DNA of 64,000 bases from Dryococelus australis (taxonomy: Eukaryota > Arthropoda > Insecta > Phasmatodea > Phasmatidae). Within the stretch, counting starts at the first letter, position 1. Each line of letters starts with the position of its first letter. The stretch spans positions 210,050,709 through 210,114,708 of the forward strand of contig CM057009.1 in assembly GCA_029891345.1 (NCBI GenBank), given 5' to 3'. Both the position numbers and the translations under genes were made by a program. Shown one piece after another: positions 33,465 to 64,000 of the stretch. The notes beneath the pieces were generated by a model. The model searched no databases, was not told where the DNA came from, and saw only the letters and a list, made by a program, of their open reading frames with translations.

Positions 33465-33962
33465 ATCCAAGTTAGAGAATCGTTTGTTGTAACATCAATA
33501 TTTTCAGAACAGAATATTTCTCTTTTTAGAGTATTGAGGTTGCCACGAAGCAGTATATCAATGCCGACTGGCTGCAAAGCCTTCCTCAAATATGTAGAAA
33601 TATCGTCCCGGCCCATATACTGTTTGGGACATGTTGGAGACGAAATACTCATGTGTGACGAGGGAAAAAAAAACCTCTCTCTGATACCAAAATGTTTCTT
33701 CAAGATGAATATCTGTACGATAGATAAATTTGCCTTTCAACACGCATGTGAAGCTACTAAAAACAATAAACTCTTGTTATATGGTTTCCCGCTTCAAATG
33801 ACACATGGAAATACATTTCAGAGCAGCATAGGATTAACAATTGATAATGACATTTATGTACATTTGACGGGATGTACGCTGGAAGAAATTTACGTAGTCT
33901 TATCATGGACGACAAACAAGACTAAATTTGAAATATATTCAAGTGTAAATACTTTTTTGTAA
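33465..33962 (+). pseudogene. PIF1-type helicase, C-terminal fragment
   Basis: The frame is open from 33,465 to 33,962 (about 165 codons). Its last 60 residues carry the C-terminal signature of PIF1/Rrm3-like helicases: YGFPLQMTHGNTFQSSIGLT, then YVHLTG, then EIYVVLSWTTNKTKF. The equivalent active-family motifs are a FPL..A.A.TIHKSQG block and a YVALSR block, so the usual KSQG and LSR residues are altered here (QSSIG, LSW). No Walker A is present upstream, so the N-terminal ATPase half is lost. Nudiviruses and related viruses carry a second, PIF1-like helicase, and Helitrons use the same domain. The neighbours favour the virus origin, but Helitron origin is not excluded. Confidence 0.6.
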
Positions 33963-34082
33963 CTATTGTAAATACATCAATGAATAAATTTTTTTCCCCT
34001 AACATGTTGTGGTTTTTTGACTTCATCCTTTTTATCCTATGTTTCCCAAACTTATGTGAAACTTTTTTTACGTGGTGTATTT

Positions 34083-34277
34083 GTATATAAGACAGTAAAT
34101 AAAAAACGGCAAATATACGCGTTTACCATTATAGTATCTATTTTATTAATTGGAATTTTAGGGTTTGATTTTTGGAAATTTAAAATTAAAATCAAAAGCT
34201 AGGTGAATGCACAATTTGGTGTGAGTACATCTTTCGGAGGTTCTGCTGATTCAGGAGCTGCAGCTGCCGGTAATTAA
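34083..34277 (+). pseudogene. Small single-pass membrane protein, family copy 1
   Basis: Reads YKTVNKKRQIY, then a hydrophobic segment (AFTIIVSILLIGILGF), then WKFKIK, a TAG at 34,200-34,202, and a Gly/Ser/Ala tail (FGVSTSFGGSADSGAAAAG) ending at 34,277. The same layout occurs at 35,184-35,327 and 53,682-53,885: a short basic/Asn N-terminus ending (K/R)Q(I/L)Y, one membrane span, then W(K)xK and a Ser/Thr/Ala/Gly tail. No ATG is present at the expected start. The function is unknown; small type-III-like membrane proteins are common in virion envelopes of large insect and crustacean viruses. Confidence 0.5.
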
Positions 34278-34295
34278 GTAAATTACTAATACAAT

Positions 34296-34673
34296 ATGAA
34301 AAAAACAATAATACCTTGTGATTTTATCTTTGCGATTAGAGAGTTGCTAAAGTTAAAAGCGCGGAGAATATTAAATAAAAACATGACGAATTCTGAATTT
34401 ATGGAATCGGGTGAATTTATAAAACTAAATCCGCCTCTGTACTTGAATTTTTTACATCTGACAGTCATCATAAATAACAGATATTTGCATGATTCCGTAT
34501 TGAGGTTAAAAGGCATAAATATATATTCGTTAATGACTGAACGTGATAAACTCGCTTCTGAAATAAAATTCAAAATTTCGCAATTAACCCATCGTTTAAA
34601 TTTTCTATATCTTAAGCAGTTTATTATCCAACAAAATTGTTTGGCCCGCACGTCACTCGCGAAAACTATATAA
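34296..34673 (+). CDS. Unidentified 125-aa basic helical protein, open
   Basis: Starts ATG at 34,296 and ends TAA at 34,673 with no internal stop, a rarity in this block. The protein is rich in Leu, Ile, Lys and Asn, predicted mostly helical, with no membrane segment or known motif. It begins 18 bases after the membrane-protein frame and is followed 19 bases later by another small open frame, a tight virus-like spacing. An antisense frame (34,286-34,651) is nearly as long and cannot be formally excluded, but the plus strand agrees with the neighbours. Confidence 0.45.
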   Translation: MKKTIIPCDFIFAIRELLKLKARRILNKNMTNSEFMESGEFIKLNPPLYLNFLHLTVIINNRYLHDSVLRLKGINIYSLMTERDKLASEIKFKISQLTHRLNFLYLKQFIIQQNCLARTSLAKTI

Positions 34674-34692
34674 CAATTTTGAGAGACGAAAA

Positions 34693-34839
34693 ATGGCAGA
34701 AAATGAAAATATTAAAAAGTTGACAAAATTACTATACAAATATAATGCCCTATCATTTCAAATTGAGGAGTTTAGGAATAAAGTTGATTCTGTACGACAC
34801 AAGTACAAAAATATATTCAATCTCGTGAAAAAATATTAA
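34693..34839 (+). CDS. Unidentified 48-aa coiled-coil-like protein
   Basis: ATG at 34,693, stop at 34,839, uninterrupted. The sequence is charged with a heptad-like pattern (LTKLLYKYNALSFQIEEF), suggesting a short coiled coil. It sits directly between two other plus-strand frames. Confidence 0.4.
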   Translation: MAENENIKKLTKLLYKYNALSFQIEEFRNKVDSVRHKYKNIFNLVKKY

Positions 34840-34841
34840 TT

Positions 34842-35200
34842 TCTTTTCAAATTACCCCGAAGACGTATTGGTTGATGTAGAGACATTATGGGATGGCGTT
34901 CCAAAGTCAAACGATCCCCAAAAAATACGTAAATCTATGTCACCTCTTATCAATACCATGAGTAATTCTCAAATTTTAGAAATAATGTCTGTATTTTTCA
35001 CTTACCTGTCGGTAAGATACGATGAAAACGCCATTCAAACATAAGTGCAGCAAGTATTTTATGGTTTGCTCACAATCATTTGCGATTCGAGCTCGGTCGT
35101 CATGGCACCCGATGGACAGCTATATAACCGACAATCGCTCTATGTAACTTTGAGTTTTTTTACTATCATTTGCCAATATATAGATAAGAACTGTGAATAA
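34842..35200 (+). pseudogene. Unidentified plus-strand gene with one in-frame stop
   Basis: A single frame reads as protein from about 34,852 to the TAA at 35,198-35,200 and is broken only by a TAA at 35,042-35,044. Segments such as PEDVLVDVETLWDGVPK and MVYGLL-like hydrophobic helices alternate. No family is recognised and no ATG is left at the 5' end. The 3' end overlaps the next membrane-protein frame by 17 bases. Confidence 0.4.
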
Positions 35201-35327
35201 AGGAAATAAACAACTCTACGTGGGATTGGGTATACTCATAGTTAGTTTAATTATTGTAATTCCACTCGGTATATACATTTGGAAAAAACACCACAATTTT
35301 GACACCTCTATAATAGAATTGGATTAG
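35184..35327 (+). pseudogene. Small single-pass membrane protein, family copy 2
   Basis: Reads RTVNKGNKQLY, then the hydrophobic span VGLGILIVSLIIVIPLGIYI, then WKKHH and a short tail. It aligns by eye with copies 1 and 3 (N-terminal K/R-N-rich stretch, (K/R)Q(I/L)Y just before the membrane, Trp-Lys just after). A TAG sits immediately upstream at 35,181-35,183, where copy 3 has its Met, so the start has been lost. Confidence 0.5.
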
Positions 35328-35920
35328 GATCTTGGTGGGGTGGAAAGAAAAAACTACATCTCCACCACGACCGCATCACTGGAAAATGAATTTACTACTG
35401 AAACCGACGATTTTACAAAAAAAAAAAAAAAACCAACGAATCTAGTTTAACCGACAAAAAAATGTCATCTATACGGTCATCATTCATCAAGCCGGGAGAG
35501 GTGGGCATGATTCTTTTTAAAACGGCAAAGAGATACCCTATGACTTTTCCCAGAGGTGTATTTACTTAGTTAATGTTAAAGAAATTTAAACGATTAAATT
35601 TCGGACCATTTAATACAATTTCCGACCTTTTGTACGGACATTCGCAAACTATATTCACGGTTCGTCTAAACGATAAGGAAGACGGCCAAGTCAAGGGTTC
35701 GTTGGATGTCAATGAATTAAATTACGAAACTTTACTCAACCAACCGTTAATTTACAAACAATTTTACATTGAATGGACTTTTGAAAATGGAATCGAATTA
35801 GTATAAGGGTCCGATAACAAACGAATCGTGATTGTATCTCCCGAGGCATCCAGAAACTTCAAAGTGTTTTCAATCAGTTTCGTCACTAATGCCAAAACTT
35901 TTTTGAAATTTGGTATGTAA
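35328..35920 (+). pseudogene. Unidentified gene broken by an A-tract frameshift and stops
   Basis: Protein-like reading starts just after the membrane protein (GGVERKNYISTTTASLEN), shifts frame at an A16 tract (about 35,416-35,432) and continues with SSIRSSFIKPGEVGMILFK. It then crosses a TAG near 35,568 and runs through 35,573-35,806 and a TAA to the terminator at 35,918-35,920. It is a soluble-looking protein of about 195 residues with no recognised domain. Confidence 0.45.
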
Positions 35921-35935
35921 TAAGCAAATGTTAAA

Positions 35936-36100
35936 ATGAAATATGTTTCATCGGTGGTCGCTGCGATATTTGGTAACTTTGATAAACAAAAACTAACCTC
36001 GATTACCCGACTGCTGAGGTCGATAGCGCGAGTCAAACTGCTCTCTCATGAGTCCATTTGTCGTTTACATGAAAATATTTTCAAAGTTACAAAAGTATAA
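35936..36100 (+). CDS. Unidentified 54-aa open frame
   Basis: ATG at 35,936, stop at 36,098-36,100, uninterrupted. Contains VSSVVAAIFGNF followed by a basic helix (RLLRSIARVKLL). It begins 15 bases after the preceding frame ends. An antisense frame of 90 codons overlaps it, so confidence is modest. Confidence 0.35.
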   Translation: MKYVSSVVAAIFGNFDKQKLTSITRLLRSIARVKLLSHESICRLHENIFKVTKV

Positions 36101-36270
36101 AAAAATTTTCAATGAAGCTTGCGTAATGATTGCAGGAACAAAACAAGCAGCATTAGAGTTTAACATTTCGCATAAATGTAAGCTTAATTTTTTTTACACA
36201 ATGCTCATTTAATTGACAAGATCGTGCTAATATGTCCTAGTCATTTTTTTGCATATGAAATTAATCATGC

Positions 36271-37469
36271 ATGGGAAAGTCAAATAAAAAAACATTTTTA
36301 TTCAATTTATCAATGTCGGTGAAATTCACAATACCATATAAAGAAACTTATATTCCTTCTCAGCCAATAAAGGAAAACATAAAAAATCTCGCACACAGCA
36401 TGTATAAAAACGAGACGATTGAACCAAGGGCTCACACTCGCTCTCTGCAAACTACAGAGTGAAGACACTATGAGAGCCAGTAGTGACACCATGAGGGCCA
36501 GTGAAGATACCATGAGAGCCAGTGAAGATACCGTGACAGCCAGTGAAGATACCATGAGAACCAATGAAGAGACTGTGAGAGCAAGTGAAGACACCATGCG
36601 AGCCAGTGAAGATATCATGCGAGCCAGCTGTGACAAACAAAACTTGTTTGACGAGAAGGAACTGTCGCCAGTGAGTTTAGCTGCCTATCGTGGTTGGTTA
36701 GATGAACTTGTACACATGAAGGAGATGAAATTGAATTTTTGAAGAAAAGCATTTTGGTGGTAAATTTCCAATTCAGCGAGCAGCAGCGGCGGGAAATTTG
36801 GAAATTGTAAAATTCCTAATAGAAGAAGGTGTCAGTGTTTCAGCCCAAGATTCAGCAGGTATAACCGTATTGGGGTATGCCAATTATTATTTTGAAAATT
36901 GGCCCGTACTTGTGTATTTGGTGCAAACAATAGACGCGGTAGTGAAAGGGATTCACAAAGACTGGAAATTATTGGTGAAAGCGGCTAATGCAGGTCGTTA
37001 AAACACTGTGCGTTACCTAATTGAAAAAAGTTTGTGTGAACCGGTTTTCTTAGAAAAGTATTTGTTACTGCATTTCGCTGCCCAAGACAGCATCGTGGAA
37101 GTGGTAGATTATCTGCTAGAAAACGGAGCAAATGTTTTATTAATGGGACTTAATATCATTACAGTATTACACGAAGCTGTATCTAGTAAAAATAAATCTA
37201 CAGTTTTGTGTTTTATGGACAATATAAAAGAAGCAGTGAATAACGACAAGGAAAAAAAAATGGAAGATTTCCTAAATACTGAGGATTTGAATGGTGAAAC
37301 TGCAATTATGTGGGATACTACGAATGAAATTTGTGAAATTTTAATTGAACATGATGCAAAACCCTACAACAAGACTAAATTAAGCCAATGCCTTATTTAT
37401 GAGTATGCCAGTAGGTATGTATGTATATATATTTTGAATGAAAAATGTCAAATGTCAACAAAAATGTAA
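36271..37469 (+). pseudogene. Ankyrin-repeat protein with N-terminal 7-residue repeats, decayed
   Basis: A frame from an ATG at 36,271 shifts into 36,419-36,742, where a 21-bp unit encoding (A/T)SEDTMR-like heptads is repeated about eight times. The reading then shifts again to 36,743-37,469, which carries degenerate ankyrin repeats: AAAAGNLEIVKFLIEEGVSV, LLVKAANAGR, LLHFAAQDSIVEVVDYLLEN and GETAIMWDT...EICEILIEHDAK. A TAA at 36,999-37,001 interrupts the ankyrin part. Ankyrin proteins of large viruses usually bind host proteins, often in ubiquitin or NF-kB pathways; the target here is unknown. The charged acidic/basic heptads could form a helical stalk. Confidence 0.65.
36455..36630 (+). repeat. 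21-bp tandem coding repeat, about 8 copies
   Basis: Units of the form 'gccagtgaagataccatgaga' run head to tail within the ankyrin gene's N-terminal part. The repeat length keeps the frame, and variation between copies is mostly at single bases. Confidence 0.9.
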
Positions 37470-37486
37470 ATAATATGTAAAAATCA

Positions 37487-37568
<82 letters not shown>
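37487..37568. repeat. Palindromic (TG)n(TA)n(CA)n microsatellite
   Basis: A run of about 11 TG, then about 21 TA, then about 9 CA forms one self-complementary tract of 82 bases that could fold into a hairpin or cruciform. It lies just 3' of the ankyrin frame. Confidence 0.97.
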
Positions 37569-37689
37569 ATGACGAACAAAGTTGCCAGTTTTCCTTCCCA
37601 TCATCCTCCTCATCCTCCTCTTCCTTTACTCCTTTCACTGATACATTCGTGATTGGTTTTTCCAAATAAATTTTGAACAAGGCAAACAT

Positions 37690-37829: not shown

Positions 37830-37835
37830 AGTAAG

Positions 37836-39040: not shown

Positions 39041-39102
39041 ATATTATGATTTACTTTCTACATGAAATTTCGCTAGCTTCCTTCAATACCATATTGTGAT
39101 TT

Positions 39103-40140
39103 ATGAAAAGTTATCAAAATGCTTTCTATAACCAGGTTGTAATTGCCAGGATTACCTATCTGAAGAAATATAAATTAAACGCATATTACGACGAAATCCA
39201 TCATTATGATAAAATGTTGAATTTTTTGTGCGTATCTAGTTCGAGTAAAATAATTAAAGATATTGAGAGAGGAAATAGTTCAGATAGAATTTACATCAAT
39301 GGTTTTCGTAGTCTAAATGATAAAATTATGGTCTATGTGGATTCGACAAGGAACCCCATACTACCTACTGGTGAAAATGTTATTTCTATTTCGCATACAA
39401 AATTTTGTGGTACAGATAGGTTCGCATGTTTTAAAGAATATACTATTTTAACCATGCAATATATGATCATATATCCTTCGAATTTATATGCAACTAGTAA
39501 TCTCGACACATTCAACCAAGAATTGATCAGGGCGGCAAAAACGAGTCAGATGTGTGTTTGTTACAAGTCCTTCAATCCTTTTCCCAATTTTAATATCGTA
39601 GATGATAGACCATATAGTGTAGTTATAAGTTGGGAGTCTGAGGAATATGAACCACATTTAGGAATTCTTTGGGTAAATATTTGTGCAAAATACAACAATT
39701 CTACAGTGTGTGTGGTTTTCAAAATCGAAATACAACCACAAAAATATTCGCCCGAAAGTATATTTTAATTTGAAAGAAACAAATCCAATACGAATAACAG
39801 AAGAGGAAACTCAAATAGAAAAACTTATAAAAACATTCCCTTCTATCTGTTTGGTACATCCGGGTAAAAAGGATATTTTAGTACCCCGTATAGAGTACAT
39901 AGATAGAGAAAATAAATTTTAATACAAGATTATTATCCATCAACCTGGGAGAAAAAACTTTACGACCACCTACTACACATCAAATTATACGTGTTTGAAA
40001 GCGACAAAGTTTTAAAATATATTTTACGTATTACAAATAACACCTTTCATTTTAAAAACAATTTTTGGGTAAAAGAAAACCGTAATTTTGACCTTTTTGA
40101 TGAGGTAGTAAGTTGTGTTGTGCTCGAAGGCACTCAATAA
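39103..40140 (+). pseudogene. Unidentified ~345-aa gene, first 220 codons intact
   Basis: ATG at 39,103 opens the longest uninterrupted plus-strand frame of the block (to 39,768). Reading then shifts into 39,750-39,922 (VYFNLKETNPIRITEEE) and again into 39,921-40,140 (WEKKLYDHLLHIKLYVFESD), ending TAA. Scattered cysteines (CVSSSS, KFCGTDRFACF, CVCYK) could pair. It has no signal peptide and no recognised domain. It starts about 60 bases after the preceding gene ends and is followed 9 bases later by a membrane protein. Confidence 0.5.
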
Positions 40141-40149
40141 CAGTAGGGC

Positions 40150-43195: not shown

Positions 43196-43199
43196 TAAA

Positions 43200-46929: not shown

Positions 46930-48225
46930 GTAAGAAATATGGTTTGAATTCACATTAGTTGAGAGGTTCTTCGTCAAATTGTTAAATGTGATTTTTGTGG
47001 TAATATTGAGACATATTTTCCCAATATAGGTAATCAAGATCTGGAGAATTTGAGGTATAAATAATTTCACCCCTTGTAGAATTTTTTTTGTTCTAAATTT
47101 CAGTATGCCACAAAATGCAAAATCGGATCTCTTAATATTGAGTACAATGGTTGACTAAGTTATCGAATTCGTAGTGCACAAATATAGGTCTTACATCCAC
47201 GATTTCAGGTGATTTACCGATGGGTGGATAATTGGGGTCTTCTGTAGGAGCATGGTAGAAAATACCAGGGTCAATAAAGATCTTGTTGTAGTGACATATG
47301 GAAAACTAGGAATTCTTAAAAACTCTAAATTAATCAGTGCGTATAGCTCTTCAATTTTGAAAGCATAACCAATTAAAGATTTGTATGATACATTTTTTTG
47401 GATGGTATGTGTTTCGCTAACCAATAAAAAAGATTGTGATCCTGAAACTTTAACCAATCCATTCGGTAATCGACCATTATTGATGAGCAGGTAATCATCC
47501 TCATAAGTGATGGGGATGTAATTTGAATTGTATGAGTGATATTCAACTGTGCCTTTCCAGTATCATGAGCCAACATTATCGCTGAGAATCCATTCGTCAG
47601 ACAAGGCATCAATTTTGCAAGGATCTGGTATTTTTTGTTGTCGAATATCTATGAATAAGGATTTGAATTTTGTGTCTAGATAATCATGCCTGATCGGTAC
47701 GAAATCGATGAAATCATCATGTGTAGCCTCGAAATATGTTGATATTTTGCATCAAGGTCTGCCATTAGCAAAGGATTTAAACTGGAGTGGAAGATCACAT
47801 TTGCAGGTAATTCCCTCAAACGAGTTCCATTGTGTCAGATCGTTGGTGTTTGTAGCCTTTGAATTGAACAGACAATGGGAAAATATTGTGCAATTGGCAT
47901 ACAAATTTGCAGAAATGAAAATGTTCGGATATTGACAATCTCAAAGCCACAAGTACCTATTGTTACCATCCGAGGTAAGCATCCATTGACTGCTATTCTT
48001 GGGCCATGCATGTTCGTCGGTCTCTATCATCCAAATACATGCAATACCCTTTGCCAGGCATTTTTTAATAAGACTGGTTTTGGGATCTATGAAAGTGACA
48101 TCAGTATCAAAATGATGGCATATTGATCTATGGTCTTTACAGTTTAAGCAAGCAGTGACTGTTTTAGAATCACATTCGATCAAATTATCACTCATACATT
48201 CGTCATTTTTATTTTCTAATTTCAA
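46930..48225 (-). pseudogene. PIF-1/PIF-2-like per os infectivity factor, decayed
   Basis: On the minus strand the N-terminal part has a CLNCKDHRSICHHFDTDVTF block (about 48,085-48,160), then ...KGIACIW, QWMLTSDGNNRYL, a CQYPN block (about 47,920-47,940) and an NC...C...C-K-C series. A DPCKIDALSDEW block (about 47,590-47,630) and a YEDDYLLINNGRLPNG stretch (about 47,465-47,515) follow, then a distal part to about 46,930. This is the cysteine layout of the PIF-1/PIF-2 family: a C-x2-C pair followed by a C..HF motif, a C-x-YP motif, C-x-C pairs, and DPC. PIF proteins sit in the virion envelope and act in entry into gut cells in baculoviruses and relatives. Several in-frame TGA/TAA codons and at least one frameshift make this a pseudogene. 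The choice between PIF-1 and PIF-2 is open. Confidence 0.65.
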
Positions 48226-48617
48226 TGTATCGAAAACTAATAATGTAAAATTTGAGCTATGTCATTTGAACTTTGTCGAGACTATTGGTAAAACACTTTC
48301 AATTTGCAAGTACAAACAAATAATTACTCAAATTAATATTACAATCACCAAAAAGTGCTATTTTTTACTTAAAATAAATGGAAGCTGTTAATCGAAAAAA
48401 TAACTGAAAATATATTATATAAATTGCATGTATACTTGAAATCACAATCAACCCAAAAAAGCTACCCACCTACAAAAAATCATTTGATTTCAAAAATATA
48501 AAAAACCTAAAAACCCTGGATAGTTTATATAAAAGGAATATTGGATGAGTTGTGTACAAGAACAAAGAAGGAGGGATATGTTTGTTTAGTTCCACGAAAC
48601 ATTACTAGATGTTTCAA
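48226..48617. other. Spacer upstream of the PIF-like gene
   Basis: AT-rich sequence. The PIF-like frame has no clear ATG before 48,225; its N-terminal membrane anchor, expected in this family, may lie in 48,226-48,400 but is not legible. Nothing else is recognised. Confidence 0.35.
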
Positions 48618-49078
48618 CAATAGGAATTTCTTCCCCACCCCCTCACTCTTACTTTCAACAACCAATCACATTGCGGCATTTCATTTCCCCCCTTTCCACT
48701 CATTTTGAAATCAATTTTATGGCCGATAAATCTGGAAAAAAGATGCTAGTCAATGGTGAGTGATGGACAGAAACACCTCAACCTTCCTCCTAGAGCAGAA
48801 GAGGAGCAAGGAATAAGAATAATATATACTATATAGTATATAGTATTATATATATACTGTAAGGTATATTATTATACTTATTCCTTATTCCTCTTTGGCT
48901 CGAGGAGGAAGGTTGATGTTTCTCTGTCCAGCTCTCGCCATTGACTGAAGTCTTTTTTCCAGATTTCTCTGCCATATAGGCGAATTGAAGGAGGGTAAGG
49001 GAGGGGAAATAAAATGCTGCAATGTGATTGTATGTTTTGGCATGATAGTGGGTGGGGGCAGAAATGCCAATAATGGAG
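48618..49078. mobile_element. ~460-bp foldback (inverted-repeat) element
   Basis: The left arm (about 48,618-48,838) and right arm (about 48,863-49,078) are reverse complements with moderate divergence. Shared blocks include caatcacattg, tctggaaaaaag, gtcaatgg.gag, ggacagaaac and aaccttcctcct. The arms meet at a small TA-rich palindrome (about 48,839-48,862). There is no coding capacity. This is the form of a MITE-like foldback element or an inverted duplication. The flanking bases show no clear target-site duplication. Confidence 0.8.
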
Positions 49079-49689: not shown

Positions 49690-51258
49690 GAGGGCATTTC
49701 CTTTATTTGAATCACAAGCTTTGGATGTTTGGTACAAAATGGGAGAGCAGCAACAACAACAATCGTGAAATATTCTCGACTGGATTACCAAATGTCCTCG
49801 AAAGGTTAATTATGGAACTCAATTTTCAATCCAACAGCCCATCACTCTTGCAAAATTTAATCAGTTTGTGGAAAATACCGAACCTACACTGATTAGAAAT
49901 TTTATAAAAATGTTTATCATCATGACCGAGCCACGATAAAGAAACTTGGCTGCGAAATCATTTTCAAATCCCCCAATCAGCGAAAATCTAAATCCGAAGT
50001 TTAAATGAATCTGGTATCATTACCTATCAACTCAAAATTTGCTTTACTTGGAGAGTCGAATTAAAGTTTTATCAGGACGAGATGGTGCCTGGGGGTTGAA
50101 GCAAAGCAGTGGAAATTGATCTCGATGTTTGTGATGTGAAGCTCGTAATTTTGGAAGAAACATTGTGAATCGTTCATTATGTGTATTCAATAGCGAGATG
50201 AGGAATGGAATTACTTTTGATCGTGTATTTGACGAAACTTCTCTACTCAACACATATCGAAACACTGTCGAAAACAAAATGTGTGATTTGATCGAAACAT
50301 TCATATGCCATCTTCCCAAAATGTTATTCGACGAATTGATTTACGACTATAGTGGTCAATACAAGAGAGTAGCTGATTTTGTCAATGAAATCTGGCCCAA
50401 TCATGTGGAGAAACTACCCTTTATCGAATGTGTCGCCGTTAGCATTCCACACACCCGATTTACTTTTCGTCCTCTTTTCACCCGCCACTCAAGTGCATAA
50501 TTTCAAATTGAGTGGTTATTATGTCGCATTCGTCAAGGAATTGGAAAACAGCAAAGTTTTAGTTCTCATCGACGTAATGGGTAAAACCAACATTTCGAGG
50601 GTAGATATGAAATAGGTATTACAAAATCATCAAAACCACATTCACACCATATATGAAATTGATATTCTGGAATCAATTTGATTCATGACATTCCATGCGG
50701 AAAAAACAAGCCATTTTGATCAATTGTCTGGTGTGTACCGTTTGAACAAGGACAAGTTATACGCAAACACATTCCATCAATCGGAATGCTCTCTCATGAT
50801 AATTTCATTTCCCACCAATGGCCTGTTGTATTTCCACAAGGACAAGATCGTCAAAGGAAAGAGTGAAAAACAATAGATTTGAAGTTTGAGAGGCAAAATT
50901 TTTTAAAGTATTTAAAAAGTAAAAAAATCCCAAAATTAAAGTTCAAACAGGGATTGTCGTTGGCCGACATGACTATAAAATATCTCGGTCAATATGCAGC
51001 ATTTAGACACCTCATGCCAAAGGTCTAGGTAACTGAAGATGGACATATCTTTGAAGAGATGTTTCCGATTATTCCATCATAATTGACGAGAGTAAGTTAA
51101 ACAAAATTATTCCCGAGATGAGCAAACGTGTGCTGTGCGAAGACATTGCGGTTGATTCGTGTTTCACTTTGGAATTCAAGGTATGTTATGACAATGACGA
51201 AATTGTATTTTGCAAATTTTGCGATAAAACCAAGTGCCAATCCAGCGACTGTAATTGA
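49690..51258 (+). pseudogene. Unidentified ~500-aa gene with C-terminal zinc-finger-like cluster
   Basis: Plus-strand coding-like pieces run from about 49,690 through 50,165-50,500 (FDETSLLNTYRNTVENKMCD; KMLFDELIYDYSGQYKR). They continue in 50,470-50,876 (LSGYYVAFVKELENSKVLVL; YRLNKDKLYANTFHQSEC) and 50,877-51,020 (SLADMTIKYLGQYAAF). They end at 51,258 with CEDIAVDSC...FCKFCDKTKCQSSDCN. The last 16 residues contain a C-x2-C...C...C arrangement compatible with zinc binding. There are at least three frameshifts and several stops. No family recognised. Confidence 0.5.
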
Positions 51259-51451: not shown

Positions 51452-51478
51452 ATAAGACAACATTATCACAAACAATAC

Positions 51479-51892
51479 TTGTCGAAAAATGTTGATGATA
51501 GCAACGATCTTGTAATGAAAACTTTTGAAACTAACTATATGCTTTTACCTCAATACGACTGGCTACAAAACACCGAGCAGTTTTGTAAAATGATTGAAGT
51601 TTTGGAGAAACTTGTGATTAGTACAATGAACGAACGTTCAAAGTACTATAGATCAACAGATGTCTGGAATTGCGTGAAATTTGCCATACACACCATTCAC
51701 AACAAGTTACCGATGCCACCGACAGACTATACTCAGCCGCAGGGTACAGACTGGTATCAATTTTCAATTTCCTTTCCACGGTTTCTCGTCTTTTCAAATT
51801 TTATCTATCTATATTTATTTGACGAAATTGATGAAACTTTACGAAATCAACTGGTTAGCGTGATAAAAAATATTTACCCACACCTACAATAA
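51479..51892 (+). CDS. Unidentified 137-aa open protein
   Basis: Open from 51,479 (TTG, no early ATG; first ATG at 51,488 would be out of frame, an in-frame ATG is at about 51,515) to TAA at 51,892. Segments LPQYDWLQNTEQFCKMIEVL and RFLVFSNFIYLYLFDEIDE suggest a helical soluble protein. Tightly placed after the small membrane protein. No family recognised. Confidence 0.4.
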   Translation: MSKNVDDSNDLVMKTFETNYMLLPQYDWLQNTEQFCKMIEVLEKLVISTMNERSKYYRSTDVWNCVKFAIHTIHNKLPMPPTDYTQPQGTDWYQFSISFPRFLVFSNFIYLYLFDEIDETLRNQLVSVIKNIYPHLQ

Positions 51893-51929
51893 GTACAGGT
51901 TGGCCTAGACCGGACCAAATGCAGTTACG

Positions 51930-53242
51930 ATGGCGGTGCCATTCGTTGGCGCCCACATTTTGATGGGTTGTTTAAAATATGAAATCGACACCGAAGCGAT
52001 GAAACACATTTTATCGCGATTGAAATTCCAAGTGGTTACTTCAATTGAATGTTTATATCAAGACGGAGGGTACGTGTTTCATTAAACTCTCCGAGCCTAT
52101 TGTTATATATATTCTTCGGCTCGGGATTTCTTCGCCCTGCAAGAATTTTTCAATATAGATTCAAAGGCGGTGATTGATAAAGTGTACTGTTGTTGGAGCA
52201 TCCGACAATCCCATTACATTTCGATCCCATGTTTACGAGGACGCCGAGTTTGGTATCTCGCTATAGATGTGATTATGGTTTCTTTGTGATTGATTCGATA
52301 AAAGCAGTGTCGGCCAAGACGGAAAAGTGGATGTTGCAATTCAATGGCCAATGCTCCAAATTCTGTTTTTACGAATCCGACCAAACGTACAATAAATGGG
52401 ATCAATTTTGGGCCATGGCTCGCATGTTTATGTATGAAAATTCCGATACGAAAATTCGCGAAGAGTTTTGCACATATTATCCCGGAGTCATTATCATAAA
52501 CAATAAATTGGTGTCTATGCCGACCACGACAGAAACCACGACAACGTTCATGCAGCAAAGTGCCTTTTCGTGCATTTCCCATTTGGATTAAGTCATTGGT
52601 TAGTATAACGCTTGGACGATAAACAATTGCCAACTAAAAGTGACTTAATTAATTTTAGTAAACGAAACATCCTACACCGTCGCCTATAAAGTACAGTCTA
52701 CTTCGCGGACTAATCGTGATCCCATAAGAGTTTCAGTAAATTTGGGTAAATGCATCACATCTTCCAACCGTTCGTTCAATGCGATGTCAAAGTACCAATT
52801 TGATCAAAACTATTCGTTTGTGCATGTGGGTACTCCGGAATTGACCAAAGTAGTTCGAACGTAAGATAACGAAAGTTTCGATTGTTTGCAGTGCACACCA
52901 AGTATCACCGACGTGGTTGCCTTCAGCACGGTTCACAATAATTCCGACAACGTACGAAACATCTTGGAGAATTTAATCGAAACCTATTATTGCGCTCTGT
53001 ATTTCGAAAACGATAAATTATTTCTCGAGGACGTGAATGCAAACAAAGTATCGATAGGTGTGAAATCCGACACTCCTATATAAATTTTGGAATTTGATGG
53101 CCCGATGATTAGGCGAAAATATAGCGCTGGTGCGAAAATCGTAAACGGAATTTATTAAGAGGGAAAATACTTTACTTCCACTTCATCCATGACGCTAAAT
53201 GCAAAATTTATAAATGTCAAGATTAACCCACGGATAAAATAA
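51930..53242 (+). pseudogene. Unidentified ~435-aa gene, one frameshift and repeated nonsense
   Basis: ATG at 51,930 (MAVPFVGAHILMGCLKYEID) opens a frame with a TAA near 52,083. Reading shifts near 52,185 and then stays in one register to the terminator at 53,240-53,242, crossing stops at 52,591, between 52,600 and 52,650, at 52,861, 53,083 and near 53,157. Distinctive parts are DYGFFVIDSIKAVSAKTEKW, CTPSITDVVAFSTVHNNSDN and a threonine run (TTTETTTTF). No family recognised. It is possibly two genes fused by my reading, with the break near 52,600. Confidence 0.45.
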
Positions 53243-53294
53243 AACAATGGATGCAACGATGCTTCAGGACGAAATAGCTTGTTTACCTAGACAA

Positions 53295-53504
53295 CTACGA
53301 CGAGATATACTCAGTACGAACCACCTTCAAAATTTCTGCTCGATAAGTCAATTGGCTTTTATCGTAAAAAACCTTTACCTGGCCATCAAAATATGAAATG
53401 AATACATTGATGTACAATACTATGATAATAAACGTGGTTGAAATTTGACTGAAATCCATTAAAGCATCTACTTTATTGACCGGTATAAGTACATTCTTAA
53501 TCAA
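53295..53504 (-). CDS. Possible 69-aa membrane protein, minus strand
   Basis: Open minus-strand frame with a central hydrophobic span (STTFIIIVLYINVFISYF). The start (ATT-like or weak codon) is uncertain. Either a small membrane protein oriented against its neighbours or chance. Confidence 0.25.
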   Translation of the reverse strand: MIKNVLIPVNKVDALMDFSQISTTFIIIVLYINVFISYFDGQVKVFYDKSQLTYRAEILKVVRTEYISS

Positions 53505-53681
53505 ATCGTTTGGTTACGATTTAAAGTACATAGAAAAACCCTATTATGTCAATTATTCGAATGAAAGATTTCTTTTTTCACTCGAATAAATAAAAAAATC
53601 ATTTCAAACACGTTTCCCTTACCAGTCTCTCGTACTTTTTAATTTTTGAATTTGTGTAAAGATTATATATTTCCCTACATA

Positions 53682-53885
53682 ATGATATATAAGAAGATTA
53701 ATAATAAAAACCAAATATATCTGTGGACGGGTAATGTCACCATTTTAATACTAGGGGTTGTGGCCTTCGTGATTTGGAAATTTAAAGATAAACTAAAAAC
53801 CTCCTTGAGTACGCATTTTGGTACTAGTGGCACATCGTTAAAAAGAACTACCCCTGCAGGAACTGCTAAGACAACACAGAGTTAA
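53682..53885 (+). CDS. Small single-pass membrane protein, family copy 3 (intact)
   Basis: ATG at 53,682 gives MIYKKINNKNQIY, a hydrophobic span (TGNVTILILGVVAFVIW), KFKDKLK, and a Ser/Thr/Gly/Ala-rich tail ending at 53,885. This 67-residue frame has no internal stop and is the best-preserved of the three related copies (others at 34,083 and 35,184). The shared plan points to a duplicated virus gene family. Function unknown. Confidence 0.55.
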   Translation: MIYKKINNKNQIYLWTGNVTILILGVVAFVIWKFKDKLKTSLSTHFGTSGTSLKRTTPAGTAKTTQS

Positions 53886-54480: not shown

Positions 54481-54738
54481 ATAATTTTTTGTAAATAATC
54501 AATAACATTTTCTTTAAATGATTTGTTGAACCTGAAATGTAATAAAAACAAATAGGTAGTAATACTAATCATCAACATACTCTTGGTTATAGCAAGTATT
54601 AAAACTTGTGTGGAATCAATCACCGAGTTGTTGATTATTTTTAATTGTATATTGGCATTCTATCTTACAGTCGTCACCGTCAAACTTCCCAAACCTCTCA
54701 CTTGTGAGTTATACAAAGAAAGTGGTATAACCACATAA
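54481..54738 (+). pseudogene. Unidentified small two-span membrane protein
   Basis: One register reads SITFSLNDLLNLKCNKNK, a TAG (54,553-54,555), then two hydrophobic segments (VVILIINILLVIASI and LLIIFNCILAFYLTVVTV), ending TAA at 54,736-54,738, two bases before the next ATG. The start codon is not visible. Confidence 0.4.
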
Positions 54739-54740
54739 CA

Positions 54741-55878
54741 ATGTTGAAGGCTCTCGTTCAATTCGCCGGTAATGTCGACAAGGCGGGTGAATGTGCAATG
54801 ATTCGACAATCCCTAGTCCCGAATTTACCAAAAGATTCAGTTTCCAAAAAAAATTTTAACAATCAATCTCTGTATGGGTTGCAAAAAAAAAAAAAAACAT
54901 TACGAATTGGCAACACCACGATTGGTGAATTTATGAGCAAGATAAAAAGGCCAGTTTGAAGCCGCTTTCGGTCAAATCGATTGGAGCAACCGTCTCAACG
55001 ACAAAATGCGCAAAGTCTTATTGTACGAAATAAAAAATTTACCGGATTATATGCTGTATAAAATTCAGCTCGGATCCAAAAAACTAAACTCGTTGAAACC
55101 AGCACTGAATAAAGCCACTGTTTCTAACAATATTGTAAAACTAATCATGACCGATCCCAAGCTCACAAAAATAAAATAAAAATTACATTTTTTCTCTCAG
55201 AGAACAAAACTTGTCGGTTACTCCGTTCTTTCTGCCGTAGGTGGTTCGGATTTGACCGCCTATATCGATAGGTACAGGAAGGCGATAAGCGGATGCATTC
55301 GCTACGAAAACGACAATGGCAAACTCAAAGTGTGTAAAGTCAATCATCTCAGTAGTCGGACGTTTCCCAACCATAGTTACTTGGATTCATGCGACGATTA
55401 AGTTTTATGCGATGAGGTAAAAAACGCCCAGTGTTTGGAGGTGGATGGTGACGTTGCGTGCGTTCATTGTGACACTGTTCAAAACGATCCTCGCGCGACC
55501 GACATCAGCGTGGAATATCGTTTTGTCGATGCCTCGTGGACGGATGCGATCGCTGATATATTGGGCAAAGACGTGGAGAATGTTGTGGCTTTTGGTGGCG
55601 ATATAATCGACTATACAAAAAACATATTTCGGTATTTGTATTACGGATTAATTTTTATCGGTGGGGTCATTATTTTGGGTTTTGCCGCCTACATAATAAA
55701 TTTGTTTCGGTTGTGGTTAAAGTGTAAAAGAAAGATAAGTGGAAATTACGAGCGCGGACAATGGGAATTCCATACTCAAGCTGTTAGAGATGTACGAAAT
55801 CGTGTCGCAGATACCCAATTTAACCGATCGCCATTTCAAATTACTCGCAAAGATTTTGGCAACTTATCGTATAGTTAA
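54741..55878 (+). pseudogene. PIF-5 (ODV-E56)-like envelope protein, decayed
   Basis: ATG at 54,741 (MLKALVQFAGNVDKAGECAM) starts a frame that shifts near the A15 tract at about 54,883-54,897 and near 54,955. It continues with IDWSNRLNDKMRK and NSLKPALNKATVSNNIVKLI, crosses a stop at about 55,178, and then reads GGSDLTAYIDRYRKAISGC, CKVNHLSSR and a cysteine cluster. A TAA at about 55,400 follows, then the open part 55,435-55,878 with CVHCDT, DASWTDAIADILGKDVENVV and one strong membrane span (YYGLIFIGGVIILGFAAYII). The order (long N-terminal domain, central Gly-Cys-Tyr-type cysteine motif, C-terminal membrane span) matches PIF-5/ODV-E56, an envelope protein of oral infectivity. This is an architectural match, weaker than for the PIF-1/2-like gene. 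Confidence 0.45.
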
Positions 55879-56985: not shown

Positions 56986-58480
56986 TTAATTCTTGTCATC
57001 TTGAAATTTATTATGTTCTTCTTCATTCATTGTTCGTGTATTAGCAATTGATTTGTTGAAATGATCCAAGTTTGGACTGAAGAAAATTCGATCGTTTGTC
57101 AGGATGCTGTTCCGGCACAGTTCATAGATGGTTTCGAGACACATAGTCAACACCGTCGATTCGTTTACATTTTCGAGTACTTTTAGCGCCGCTTCATGCG
57201 AAATGCGTTGATTCGTGTAATTTTCCTTTTGTATCTGTACGAGTAGATATTGATTGACGATAGCGAACTAGAATGGCTCGTCTTTAAAGTTTTCCAATCT
57301 CGCCATATCGTGTATGGCCATTGCGTTTCGAAAAGTGAGGTATTGTGGTAGAGAAATATTATCAATCACCCAACGTTGGTATTCTTCATCCCAGTCCTTA
57401 AGATGGTGATTCTTAAACAACTGCAAGAGACCAATTAATGCGCCGCGACATTCTTCCTCCAAGGGCAAGTTGATTAAGTAAAAGGCATGGTTTCGGTCGA
57501 GGATTGTAGGTTTTATTGATTCTTTTACATTGGTTGCAGCTGCAATTAAAACATTATTTTTCATTTGAACACCTCCTTCGAAACTGGTTTCTAGGGTAAT
57601 TGCCACACTTGGCAAATGGGGTGTAATTTCCAAGTTTTGCTAAACTGTCTCATCGATTTCGTCCAGAAATATCACTAATAGCTGGTTCTGGCTCTCTATG
57701 GTCATCTTGAACAAATTGGCTAATTTGCGTTCAGTATCACCGATGGTGGGTGAGGGTAACTGCCCAATGTTGAGTTTGTATAGTTTGGCTTTCCATTCTG
57801 ACGCGATTGCGTCGGCCAGCGTACTCTTACCCGTACCTAGAGGACCGAAAATCATTATAAATTTGAATTGTGGGTTAAACACTTGCGTATAGATTAAAAT
57901 TTTGAGTTCTGCTTTCAACTGATCACGGTCATGTACATCCGTGAAAGAAAATTGGGGTTCTACTCCCCATAGGTCCAGCTCGGATTAAATCTCCGAATTT
58001 GATTCTACTCCAAATAAATCGCTCACATTCTTGGGATTCCGGAAGTAAGCCAAAATCAATTTTCAATCTGGGTCGTTAAATTTTAGAGATTATTTTTCGA
58101 TAGCAAAGCACATTTGAAAATCGCCAATTTTTGTACCAAGTACACCCATGATTTGTAAATAGTGTATTGATTTTCAGCCAGCTTAGATTACCCCTCCTTT
58201 AAAATTTTTGAAAATTCTTCGCCTAAACCAAAGAGCGTAGTCTCTAAATCATCTAAAAGTTTGTCACCTTTCTGCGAAGTGATTTGTGATTTTTCTAGCG
58301 AAGATGACAAAAATTCCGCATGGTTAAGCATTTGAGATAATTTCTCCAAGTTTGTGTATTCGACAAATGAGATTTTCGGCGCACATGTAAATTGAATTAG
58401 ACCGGTTTCTATGATGGCGAGAACGTTTTCATTTATTGTTTTTTTATCTGAGTTTTCCGAAGTACTTATAAGATTCTTTT
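56986..58480 (-). pseudogene. AAA+ ATPase (katanin/spastin/Vps4-like core), broken only by nonsense codons
   Basis: Minus-strand gene in a single register from at least 58,090 to the TAA at 56,986. Motifs in order: a pre-core FTDVHDRDQLKAELK segment; Walker A GPLGTGKST (about 57,819-57,845); Walker B LLVIFLDEID (about 57,653-57,685); sensor-1 NNVLIAAATN (about 57,530-57,562); and a helical lid region (LIGLLQLFKNHHLKDW; AMAIHDMARL). The C-terminal helical tail runs to MNEEEHNKFQDDKN. In-frame stops lie near 57,994, 57,637 and 57,266; I found no frameshift between the motifs. The region 58,200-58,480 is helical on the same strand and may be the N-terminal part. Such ATPases remodel protein assemblies. 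Origin by capture from a host is plausible, as is an old virus gene. Confidence 0.75.
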
Positions 58481-58679
58481 TTTATCGTGATGTAGCACCA
58501 ACAACAGTAACATCAACGAACCTTGTTTCTATTGTTGCAACTTCAACAACTCAGGTCACAGTGCCCCGACTCTGACATTCTCGTAACGAACCAGCAATCT
58601 TATTCTCAGCCGTTAAACTCTTCCCCTCCCCTCCCCCAAACACTCCCCTATTCAGTTACAAAGACCTCATGTAAAGACC

Positions 58680-59646: not shown

Positions 59647-59739
59647 GTTTGGCGAAATCCTCTGTGAAAGTGTTCTTATTTATAACGAGCAGTTCCGTAT
59701 TAGCATCTTTGATGTTGATTTAGCGATTCACAACATGCG

Positions 59740-61252
59740 ATGTTCTATTTAATCCTAACGGTTATAAAGAATAATTTCCTCATAAATTTATATAAAGCCG
59801 ATATTGATAATGCTCGACATTTGTTTAAGAATATTTCACCAGTGCTGGATCAAGCAGTCAACTACTATGACTATGCTTTGGCTGGTGCTCGTGGAACGAA
59901 ATTAGTGAAGCGAACGCACGATATCGACCAATACGACCAGCATCTTCAATTCATTGGCAATGAGAATTTCGCATTCGACTTTCACAACAATGCCAACAAA
60001 ATGCGTGAAATAAAACGTCAAAAAACCCCACCGCAAAATGAAAGAACCCCGATAATGAACCAGGTTCAGACATCAACTGTGTATTTAAATGAACTATTGG
60101 CAATCGACACACCTCACGTTTTCGAGATGGATATGAGGTTTCAATCAGATGTTTCAAACAACTATTCATTCGAGAATATCGTACAAGAACAACAGCAATT
60201 ACCAGAGCAAAACCAATACACAACAAATTTCGTACCTAATAATTACATACCCAACACACAACTAGAATTACCAAAGCAAGAACAACAATCTATTAATTAC
60301 ATACTTGACGAGCAACAACAACAATTACTAGAGCAAAACTAACTTACCCCGAACTACATACCTAACTAACAAAATATTTTAGAAAAAGTACAAGAGTGGT
60401 ACACTAGAAAACAAGGCCGCCCACACGACAAAACTTCGACAAGTGTCGATGAGTGGATGCTTTTGTTTGAAACACCAAATATTTCCGAACAAGCAATGAT
60501 TGGATTGTATAATGGTGGTTGTGAACTACGAGCTTTTATCGAGAAGGCACTAAATTCGGAAACTTTCAAAAGTAGTGGCGTTGCGAAATACATCATTCTA
60601 AAAGAACAACTTCCAACATTGGATTTTAAACTTGACGAGGTTGAACATAAGTACAACATAAGTTACCAACACCTATATATATTAATATTATTTGATAAAA
60701 TGACTGATGAAATCGTCTGAGAAAACGCTTTACTTTCCAAAAACCAAATCCAATATTTCACTTTCGATCCCCAGGCAGCAATTCGAAACGCCATTAAATT
60801 ATTCGATATGGGTTTGACGGTGTTGCAGAATGTCTTGGTGTTTAATTTTTACCTAGCCAATAGCCATGAGGTTCAAAATTTATTCAAAGTGAAAGTTCTG
60901 GTAATTAAATTACGGGTACGTGCAAGAAGCGGGCATCAGTCCCAAATTCGTCCACAAACGATTCCACGGGCACAATAACGAATCGAGTAACTTTGATACC
61001 GTACATAATTTTTCATCAACGGGCTACGAAAACTTCACGTATAATTTTCCAAATGGAAAAATACACCAGCCGACCAAACAAATAAAAGTTGCGTATTCGA
61101 TCTGTGCCAATACACCACAGCATTTTAAATCGCAGCCGGTAGAACAGATAAGTTTCAATTCGATGCATATTCCGCATTTGAAAGATGTCTCCTCGATCGA
61201 TCTCGACAAAATGCAAGTAAAACCTCAAATAATTCAATCGTCTTTAACATGA
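59740..61252 (+). pseudogene. Unidentified ~500-aa Gln/Asn-rich gene
   Basis: ATG at 59,740 gives MFYLILTVIKNNFLINLYKA, then a hydrophilic region and a glutamine/asparagine-rich stretch with a repeating NYI(P/L)N...EQQQQ pattern (about 60,170-60,370). The register is kept across stops at 60,340 and 60,367 and a TGA at 60,718 up to about 60,915. One frameshift then leads into 60,920-61,252 (FHGHNNESSNFDTVHNFSST; HIPHLKDVSSIDLDKMQVKP). In the repeat, the first stop (TAA) stands where an earlier unit has CAA. The terminal TGA overlaps the next ATG. No family recognised; low-complexity virion or matrix protein is a guess. Confidence 0.5.
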
Positions 61253-61954
61253 GTGGTGACAGATAATCCCAATTACAACAACAAGAATTAACTACATCCC
61301 CAACTCTGCCATTTTCGATTCAAAACATTTCACCCAATTACAACCTATCAGATTTTTTAAGCTTCCTGTCTCCTAAAAACTCTTCTGTGTGTTGCAATCA
61401 ACAAACATCACTCGATGATTTAATGTTCGTTGCTTTACGCTCACACGATCTAATCCCTTCGAATGAAGATGTGATGGCTGGGGGAAGCGGTAACGGATAC
61501 GATCCAACTCGGATAAATGAGGTACACACACCGGTCGAATTCTTCCAGGCGACTCAAATTCAAATAAACGTTCTTCCCGAGGGGAATTTACCCCTTGTTC
61601 CACAAGTCGCTACATTACCCGATGAGTTGATATTTGCCACGTGAGAAGAAAACAATTAATGGCCATTGTCGAATCAAACGACCCCATCGTCTGACGAATT
61701 CATCATCAGTTTGGCAAAGGAATGGGGCAAAAAATAGTAAAACCATTAATATCAAAGAATTTCTTAATAGTATTCACTTTTGCAAAGAAGTCATGGAACG
61801 AACATACGACAACAATCAAGTAAAAGCTGCCCTTTCTCTCGCTGGAATCCATTTGCTTAAATTGGCTGCCGAAAAGAAAATTATCAGTGAAGTATGCGAC
61901 AATCTAAGAATCGCGATCGAATCTTATCAAAAAGCCAATGCATACCTTACATAA
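61249..61954 (+). pseudogene. Unidentified ~235-aa gene overlapping the previous stop by ATGA
   Basis: ATG at 61,249 (4-base overlap with the upstream stop) begins MSGDR, a TAA at 61,264, then LPFSIQNISPNYNLSDFLSF and SLDDLMFVALRSHDLIPSNE. After a TGA near 61,642 and a shift near 61,735 it ends with a helical domain (VKAALSLAGIHLLKLAAEKK) at 61,954. The frame order is convincing; the family is unknown. Confidence 0.5.
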
Positions 61955-62040
61955 TTTACCCTTCCAGGTAAAAATGTGTGATGATTAATACATTTTTGTC
62001 CGGGCAGTGCCTCATCGCCTCGAGTCAACTAGGAACAAAT

Positions 62041-62694
62041 TTAAAAGACTGAAAATTGAAGGTCCGATTTAAAAACTTGTAGTGTATTTCCCACAACGAT
62101 AAAGTCAATTAAATAGCTATCTTCCACCTTCTTGGCCAAATTTGCAACATCTATATATTGTCGCGTATATTTTTTTGATATCAAATTATTTGTATTCTAT
62201 AAACCCTTTGTATAAAATCGAAGAAAATATCTTCTTGGTATCGATGGTTTCCATAAAATCCATCAAGAAAACACCTGCGAAAAACATCGCCAAATACAAC
62301 TTTAATTCTACATTGTATTTCCTATATTCTAATTTTAACGTAGGTTTAACGGAAATTATACTTTCTTCGAAAGGAACTTCACCGATACGAAATTCTCTCT
62401 TTTTTTTTTTTTAATCAACATTCTTACACTTCGACGCAGTATTTTGCTGTGTTTAAGAAAGATTTTTTGATTTTCGATGACCGGTTGTAGTAGTTTATAC
62501 CTATCGCATAGTATGGATAAAATCAATTCGTTCGTATCCGGCACTATCTTAAATCTTAACTGCAGTGATAGGTATTCGGAAAAATGACAGGGAACGGAAA
62601 GAGATAATGTAGGGATAAGTCAGGCAACATCTATCGCATTCGTAATACAAATATTTAAATTTTTGATAACATTCTTTAAAGTGTTCGAATTCAT
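62041..62694 (-). pseudogene. Unidentified ~215-aa minus-strand gene
   Basis: ATG at 62,694 (MNSNTLKNVIKNLNICITNA), then a stop, then CHFSEYLSLQLRFKIVPDTN and ELILSILCDRYKLLQPVIEN. Reading slips at the T14 tract (A-tract on the coding strand, about 62,400-62,413), continues PTLKLEYRKYNVELKLYLAM and AGVFLMDFMETIDTKKIF, slips again near 62,180 and ends KVEDSYLIDFIVVGNTLQVF at 62,041. Helical, no clear membrane span. Plus-strand ORFs here are shadows. Confidence 0.45.
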
Positions 62695-62777
62695 TTCAGC
62701 AATAATTGGCATTTATCTCATACGGGTGCACTATATAACCATTTTCGTTTTGCTAACATTCGGGTTGTAGACAGTTT

Positions 62778-63596
62778 ATTTGGCTTTTAGGAAGCCTGTG
62801 CTCACATTTGACGATTTCTGGTAATCCATGATTACAAACGATGTAGGCATCTTTCGCCTAAGGCGATCTGATTTTGTTCAATTTGTCGACACAAACGTTG
62901 CCAATATCCCTTTCCATCCTAATCGCATCATTGTTCGTATGGCACGCGGTGCCATAAAAATTATATTTTTTGGGCGTACTTCCAAAATCCATTTACGATC
63001 GCATCTCATATACATATCTTCGAGTTTTTTGTATTTATTTGCGGATTCGGAACCACCGATGTTCATAAAGTTGCAATACTGTTCGTACGTTATGAAATCG
63101 ACTTGGTTAGGATTACTTCACTCACTGTACATCAACTTCAGGCCTTCTGAAATGCTCAGTTTCGGGGAGATCGACGCAAATATTAGGGGAATTAAATCAC
63201 CACGTAGCTGGATTTTATAATCCGTCCCGACTTTGACGAGTTTCGGTGAAAGTGGTTGCGTGTGACTACTTTTGAGCCATTTTTGTTTCTCTAAGTTCCA
63301 TCCCTATTCGTGAGGTGTTTTGTCTGTTTCGCTGATAAAATTCACCTCGATTTTCGAGCTTTCTGCATTCTCTGTGCCCGTCGCAAAAACTTCGCACTCA
63401 CAATACGTATTCGTTTTACACAAAGTCACAAATTTAAGTTTTTCATTTTTGACTAGGTTCAACCTAAACAAATATTTACCCGATTTCACGGATCGTATTT
63501 TGGAGTTTTCGCATATAGTAAAAACAAATACACCAAAAATATTACAAGTGATAATACTGCTTCAACAATGATGCTAATCGAGTAGGAATGCATCAT
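62778..63596 (-). pseudogene. Unidentified ~270-aa envelope-type protein with N-terminal anchor
   Basis: ATG at 63,594-63,596 starts with a clear signal anchor (SIIVEAVLSLVIFLVYLFLL). A shifted open part follows (63,304-63,489) with CKTNTYCECEVFATGTENAE, then DYKIQLRGDLIPLIFASISP, YEQYCNFMNIGGSESANKYK and RPKNIIFMAPRAIRTMMRL. The last register passes a TGA near 62,878. N-terminal anchor plus a cysteine-bearing ectodomain is the plan of several per os infectivity factors, but no specific PIF signature could be recognised, so I leave it unnamed. Confidence 0.5.
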
Positions 63597-63661
63597 TGCA
63601 TTTCTTTCTCTCTCACACATTCTCTCTTAGGGAACAAAAAATTGTAATCAAAGGATTGCTT

Positions 63662-64000
63662 TCAAAGCCAATGTATTTTATTCATACCAGCCAATATCAG
63701 CTGCTTCAACACAAATAAAATTGTCAAAATGACCACCCATGCAATAAGGTACCAGACTATATGGCTTCCAGTTCCGATGGTAATTGGACCATTTTGCCAA
63801 ATTAACCCACGTAAATGAACCGCGGCGAATCGATGAAAAGGAGTAGATCTACTAGTCTAGATAAATAAAATTTATATTTGAGATACGTATCAAACCTTTT
63901 CAAAATAATCGAATTCCATACAATTTCATTCATGCTTTTATCCAGCGTGTATAAAACTCGGCCATCGGATGTGTGAGTTTCAATCAAAGGCGTTTTCAAA
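63662..64000 (-). pseudogene. Envelope-type protein with C-terminal membrane span, cut by window end
   Basis: Minus-strand frame open from the window edge to 63,802 (ETHTSDGRVLYTLDKSMNEI; YLKYKFYLSRLVDLLLFI). A one-base shift then leads into a strong membrane span (HIVWYLIAWVVILTILFVL) and a short basic tail ending at 63,662. The 5' part lies outside the window. Confidence 0.45.

Follow-up and report, generated by a model that had tools for sequence, protein, structure and literature searches.

Broken ODV-E66-like and AAA+ ATPase genes on contig CM057009.1, probably the remains of an endogenous virus of the PIF-bearing class

Results

The window analyzed here is a stretch of 64,000 nucleotides from contig CM057009.1 (assembly GCA_029891345.1, positions 210,050,709 to 210,114,708 of the forward strand). 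Its right-hand part, from 33.4 kb to the end, carries a series of broken genes, among them an ODV-E66-like lyase pseudogene, a putative PIF-like pseudogene and an AAA+ ATPase pseudogene, and is considered below as a candidate endogenous virus. For the Pfam scan, 241 stop-to-stop pieces of 33–64 kb were each searched singly, none being joined. They comprised all 95 pieces of at least 75 amino acids with an end beyond 32.5 kb (the first begins at 32956), for which the best 25 of 63 families were considered, down to E 0.0068, and 146 of the 201 pieces of 45–74 amino acids, for which all 12 families at E ≤ 0.05 were considered. As a control, 80 pieces of at least 80 amino acids from the left half were employed. 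Since the window ends at 64 kb, it holds only part of any genome of naldavirus size. The recognized genes are as follows.

51452–51889, plus strand: ODV-E66-like lyase pseudogene, N-terminal alpha-helical piece; Pfam Lyase_8_N at E 4.6e-5 (23.1 bits, cut-off 24), PDB 3vsm chain 99–151 at E 0.12
51909–52082, plus strand: ODV-E66-like pseudogene, active-site piece; Asn codon 51918, His codon 52080, in-frame stop, then Tyr codons 52098 and 52104
52181–52588, plus strand: ODV-E66-like pseudogene, central piece; Pfam Baculo_E66 at E 3.6e-4 (20 bits, cut-off 26.5), PDB 3vsm chain 336–413 at E 0.048
52649–53324, plus strand: probable C-terminal part of the ODV-E66-like pseudogene; extent estimated from the 3vsm match, which predicts an end near 53324
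47566–48261, minus strand: putative PIF-1-like pseudogene, three same-frame pieces (47944–48261, 47755–47940, 47566–47751) with single stops between; Pfam PF05092 PIF on the third piece
56989–58481, minus strand: AAA+ ATPase pseudogene; P-loop piece 57643–57984 (Pfam AAA, 4.7e-16), same-frame pieces 57271–57639 and 56989–57267 behind single stops
58191–58481, minus strand: possible N-terminal part of the AAA+ pseudogene in another frame
36735–37466, plus strand: ankyrin-repeat gene, two same-frame pieces with an in-frame stop at 36999; Pfam Ank_4 3.6e-6, Ank_2 2.5e-13

The ODV-E66-like pseudogene

The firmest evidence for a virus is the broken ODV-E66-like gene at 51.45–53.3 kb, which was absent from a first-pass annotation of this DNA, as were the ankyrin repeats and the paired membrane-tail frames described below. 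For both 51452–51889 and 52181–52588, the only PDB sequence match at E ≤ 1 was 3vsm, the ODV-E66 of AcMNPV, and the two matches are colinear with the ODV-E66 chain. Assignment to the ODV-E66/PL23 family thus relies on a colinear sequence match in two pieces, with scores under the curated cut-offs. The piece at 51909–52082 had no PDB match of its own, and neither Baculo_E66 nor PIF was matched by the pieces of 52649–53324 in Pfam.

ODV-E66 is a chondroitin lyase with an Asn-His-Tyr triad, formed in 3VSM by Asn236, His291 and Tyr299 (PMC12088678). Projection from the first 3vsm match placed the triad codons at 51920, 52085 and 52109, and such codons are present in one frame at 51918, 52080 and 52104, within two codons of the forecast, the His and Tyr codons being separated by an in-frame stop. 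Their spacing is 54 (Asn to His) and 8 (His to the Tyr at 52104), compared to 55 and 8 in 3VSM. Across the six frames of the window, the pattern N-(54..56)-H-8-Y occurred at 28 of 127996 codon positions, which gives a chance of about 0.005 for such a triad by post hoc arithmetic (three frames, seven codons around the forecast).

The gene is dead, as His is followed immediately by the stop and both outer pieces lie in a different frame from the middle one, and lyase activity would not be expected. Compared to AcMNPV ODV-E66 (PDB 3VSM, PL23), the locus is alike in its two colinear matches and in the triad codons near their expected places, whereas it is distant in sequence (E 0.12 and 0.048), is broken by stops and frame changes, and possibly carries a C-terminal membrane tail at 53.6–53.9 kb. 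The membrane anchor of baculoviral ODV-E66 is N-terminal.

The PIF-like region

A PIF-1/2-like protein had been proposed in the first-pass annotation at 46.9–48.2 kb. Here, a single 62-amino-acid piece (47566–47751, minus strand) matched Pfam PF05092 PIF over positions 216–250 of the 522 of the profile, at E 0.024; with 13.8 bits the match lies below the cut-off of 25, and an unrelated family scored better in an overlapping frame, as detailed in the Discussion. No Pfam match was obtained for 47944–48261 or 47755–47940, and PDB sequence searches of the region were unhelpful. In the left-half control, the 80 pieces matched eight families at E ≤ 0.1, none of them a naldavirus family.

The PIF-like gene (minus strand) and the ODV-E66-like gene (plus strand) diverge, with 3.2 kb between them. 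Within this interval, at 48705–48989, lies a foldback element with 120-nucleotide arms that are 80% complementary and 45 nucleotides apart; it may be a transposon that landed among the viral genes.

AAA+ ATPase and ankyrin genes, and gene decay

The AAA+ ATPase read from the sequence in the earlier annotation was borne out by Pfam, in-frame stops included, and the closest PDB relatives of the P-loop piece are of the Cdc48/VCP type. The ankyrin pieces are clear by Pfam, and by sequence could be of either virus or host origin. Directly before the ankyrin gene, at 36458–36627, eight copies of a 21-nucleotide unit lie in an open frame.

In-frame stops or frame changes break the ODV-E66-like, PIF-like, AAA+ and ankyrin genes as well as a gene at 54.7–55.9 kb. 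Stop-codon recoding was rejected as the cause: the PIF-like gene is split by TGA, the AAA+ gene by TAG, and the 55 kb and ankyrin genes by TAA, and the use of all three kinds argues for decay rather than a changed code. With its genes broken in this way, the stretch has most probably no viral function left; it is possibly a source of small RNAs.

Genes proposed earlier, membrane tails and frames without known relatives

The remaining features of the right-hand part are listed here.

54708–55875, plus strand: broken gene with a C-terminal membrane helix, in pieces with single stops and one frame change; the PIF-5 of the first-pass annotation, identity unconfirmed
53643–53882, plus strand: membrane-tail open reading frame, one of a pair; 46% identity over 41 amino acids to 33984–34199
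33984–34199, plus strand: membrane-tail open reading frame, second of the pair, possibly extended by the same-frame piece 33465–33959 that precedes it
35184–35324, plus strand: possibly a third such membrane tail; single BLASTP comparisons with the pair gave E 6e-4 and 0.038
39100–39765, plus strand: longest uninterrupted frame of the region, 222 amino acids stop to stop; no known relative

The membrane helix at 54.7–55.9 kb is preceded by a Cys-containing part, a layout that would suit PIF-5. The proposed identity found no backing in a naldavirus profile, sequence or fold match: Pfam returned unrelated families only (E 0.06–0.09), a protein search found no homologue, and the PDB sequence matches, to CDH1 for one piece (0.031) and to an antibody for another (0.75), were both taken as chance. 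A single-sequence model of 55402–55875 consists of a hairpin and a long helix (pLDDT 70). Fold comparison gave no identification either, as this model matched nothing at E ≤ 0.001, the best hits being an unnamed viral protein in BFVD (E 0.11) and a PDB entry at E 2.2. A relationship of 51055–51255 to the piece at 55.4 kb was also rejected (E 1.1).

A PIF1-type helicase fragment, also proposed earlier, was not among the Pfam matches listed (the best 25 of 63 families for the 95 pieces, all 12 at E ≤ 0.05 for the 146). The naldavirus core includes pif0/p74, pif2, pif3, DNA polymerase and p33, while lef4, lef8 and lef9 are transcription genes of Lefavirales (PMC12548425); none of these eight was among the listed matches of the 241 pieces, the window holding a partial genome.

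The membrane-tail frames at 33984–34199 and 53643–53882 share their tail (E 1e-12 when compared alone, 7.6e-10 all-against-all), although they lie 19 kb apart. With the end of the ODV-E66-like gene expected near 53324, the tail at 53643–53882 could be either the C-terminal anchor of that protein or part of a neighbouring gene. For 33465–33959 there was no Pfam and no PDB match. The frame at 39100–39765 had no Pfam match, a protein search returned 49 candidates with none at E ≤ 0.01, and its model (pLDDT 34.5) was unusable. At 59719–61951 (plus strand) lies a run of long frames, the first of them Gln-rich, which perhaps represent one large structural protein; 59719–60339 and 60370–60717 had no Pfam match.

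Comparison of the two halves of the window

Between 33.4 and 64 kb there are 36 stop-to-stop frames of at least 100 amino acids, whereas 40 dinucleotide shuffles averaged 6.5 and never exceeded 15. The compact, disrupted genes described earlier for this part are therefore present as an abundance of broken open frames, though the left half shows a comparable excess (41 vs. 8.6 in shuffles). Frame density was accordingly rejected as proof of a virus. Self-BLASTN gave nine repeat pairs, eight in the left 33 kb and one on the right, the latter being a 21-nucleotide tandem array. A TA/TG microsatellite is located inside the 33.4–64 kb stretch. Rfam and tRNA scans gave no match.

The left border, which we would guess to lie near 33.3 kb, was identified by neither a junction nor a target duplication, and rescanned pieces of 29.6–31.9 kb gave one weak, unrelated Pfam match only. 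Further to the left, 5604–6660 and 13406–14450 form a 1.06-kb direct repeat (92% identical), and one of the 80 control pieces (1–32500) matched DUF7041 at 1.2e-20. At 23209–24300 (minus strand), two long frames of 228 and 135 amino acids are separated by one stop and have no Pfam match; we presume a likeness to the type-B DNA polymerases of Maverick/adintovirus-like elements, for which Pfam gave no support.

Discussion

An ODV-E66-like and an AAA+ pseudogene occur together in a stretch poor in dispersed repeats, and a PIF gene is weakly indicated by its profile match. Taken together, the sequence data suggest, with a probability that we put at about 0.75, that 33.4 kb to beyond 64 kb is a pseudogenized endogenous virus of the PIF-bearing class (Naldaviricetes type). 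The fossil of a large PIF-class double-stranded DNA virus proposed in the first-pass annotation is thus still the best reading, mainly by way of ODV-E66, but its PIF profile is weak, and PIF-5 and the PIF1 helicase are unsupported. In such a scenario, a large PIF-bearing double-stranded DNA virus would have entered an animal germ line and stayed in the chromosome, where its genes would have decayed through in-frame stops and frame changes; we infer a single insertion, its age and the animal host. Oral infection by baculoviruses requires PIFs and is aided by ODV-E66, a chondroitinase of the envelope (PMC12548425). Judging from these families, chondroitin-type sugars would have been the substrate of the ODV-E66-like lyase (known relatives cut those that line the host gut), and entry of the virion into gut cells would have been the task of PIF proteins.

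Several observations weigh against this interpretation. The Lyase_8_N and Baculo_E66 scores are both under the curated Pfam cut-offs (23.1 vs. 24 and 20 vs. 26.5). The second 3vsm match forecasts the triad at 51896, 52061 and 52085, i.e., 6–7 codons upstream; moreover, the His motif was spotted by eye before its expected place was computed, and the offset relies on a total ODV-E66 length that we take to be 704 amino acids. Taken alone, the E-value of the PIF match is at noise level, given that 12 families at E ≤ 0.05 appeared among the 146 pieces where about seven are expected, and that an overlapping frame (47376–47648, minus strand) gave a stronger match to the unrelated TelK_stirrup (E 0.0029). 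The weight of the PIF match comes instead from its being the only naldavirus family among those 12 and from its position inside an interval named beforehand. In the scan of the 95 pieces, the unrelated families DUF2921, TPR_MLP1_2, TelK_stirrup and Pox_H7 reached 0.0014–0.0042. AAA+ and ankyrin genes also occur in hosts, and the AAA+ gene here resembles Cdc48/VCP. The excess of open frames is real, yet it is no discriminator between the halves. DNA polymerase, p74, RNA polymerase and other core genes were not among the Pfam matches listed. Finally, three protein searches (49, 2 and 12 candidates) gave no significant relative, with only proteins of similar length considered and the pieces being poor queries, and four viral-contig scans with four pieces found nothing.

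Could these genes have come together without a virus? A horizontally acquired lyase pseudogene, unrelated host pseudogenes (AAA+ and ankyrin) and a chance PIF match would fit the commonness of AAA+ and ankyrin in hosts, a weak PIF E-value (0.024), the unrelated families matched in the same scans and the view that ODV-E66 itself derives from bacterial lyases (PMC12548425). We nevertheless consider this unlikely, as the lyase matched Baculo_E66 and had ODV-E66 as its only PDB match (E ≤ 1), the PIF match falls in the forecast interval 3.2 kb away, membrane frames 19 kb apart have a common tail and the stretch has few dispersed repeats. Misassembly of a present-day free virus into the contig is highly improbable, in view of all three stop kinds and frame changes in the recognized genes, and of the foldback at 48.7–49.0 kb and the microsatellite inside the stretch.

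With regard to the lineage of a PIF-bearing virus at this locus, the gene content as read from sequence tends to favour Lefavirales-type lineages (nudi-, hytrosa-, filamentous or labial-gland-disease viruses) over Nimaviridae. An AAA+ ATPase is common to labial gland disease viruses, AmFV, AmFLV, filamento- and hytrosaviruses, and odv-e66 is held by baculo-, hytrosa- and nudiviruses, certain filamentoviruses and AmFV (PMC12548425). The available text of the AmFV genome paper contains neither e66, AAA, ankyrin, helicase nor lyase, which is uninformative either way. An endogenous nudivirus is conceivable but doubtful. In the lobster nudivirus HgNV (Homarus gammarus nudivirus), ODV-E66 (ORF25) and PIF-1 (ORF28) are divergent with 2.7 kb between them, and two odv-e66 genes are neighbours (PMC6626001); the layout at this locus, with its 3.2 kb, may thus recall that of crustacean nudiviruses. 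However, two genes, one of them weakly identified, make thin synteny, no transcription or capsid families of nudiviruses were among the Pfam matches listed, and nudiviruses are not named as holders of the AAA+ ATPase in the available text of PMC12548425. HgNV, further, exists as a free virus and has the complete set of core genes, and the available text on it contains neither "AAA" nor "ankyrin" (PMC6626001); it is likened to the locus by its gene layout. An endogenous nimavirus (a white spot syndrome virus relative) in a crustacean is improbable. Nimaviruses do carry PIFs and an AAA ATPase (wsv026), which belongs to their core set, and these large PIF-bearing double-stranded DNA viruses are widely endogenous in crustacean genomes (PMC10871703). 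On the other hand, "e66" and "lyase" are missing from the main text of that paper, in contrast to the ODV-E66-like gene here, and nimaviruses are not among the odv-e66 holders named in the available text of PMC12548425. Several endogenous nimavirus lineages lie at telomere-type TAACC/GGTTA repeats, whereas no two adjacent TAACC or GGTTA units occur in the window; the window need not include the insertion ends, however, and 28S rDNA or AT repeats serve some nimaviruses instead.

The labial-gland-disease-type elements of ants are alike in that a host scaffold retains naldavirus genes, together with premature stops and transposable elements, and the gene set of such viruses includes ODV-E66 and an AAA+ ATPase, as here (PMC12548425). 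DNA polymerase and lef genes, in contrast, were not among the Pfam matches listed here. Elements related to labial gland disease virus are known from 36 ant species (PMC12548425), and Filamentoviridae genes are domesticated in Leptopilina wasps (PMC11750357). The published range of endogenous members is therefore wider than the few nimavirus-like and nudivirus-like cases that the earlier annotation had in mind and, with relatives already published in ants, wasps and crustaceans, this locus adds to a known sort.

There is some chance, which we rate well below even, that the stretch represents a PIF-virus lineage not yet described at family level, marked by ODV-E66, AAA+, possibly ankyrin, membrane proteins with a common C-terminal tail and a new host group. 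If the lineage has already been described, the locus would be one more decayed copy. The deep history of the PIF-bearing viruses is known mostly from insects and decapods, and endogenous copies allow this class to be dated and placed. If this is indeed an ODV-E66 fossil in a new host group, the use of a chondroitin-cutting envelope enzyme in oral infection would be older or more widespread than known.

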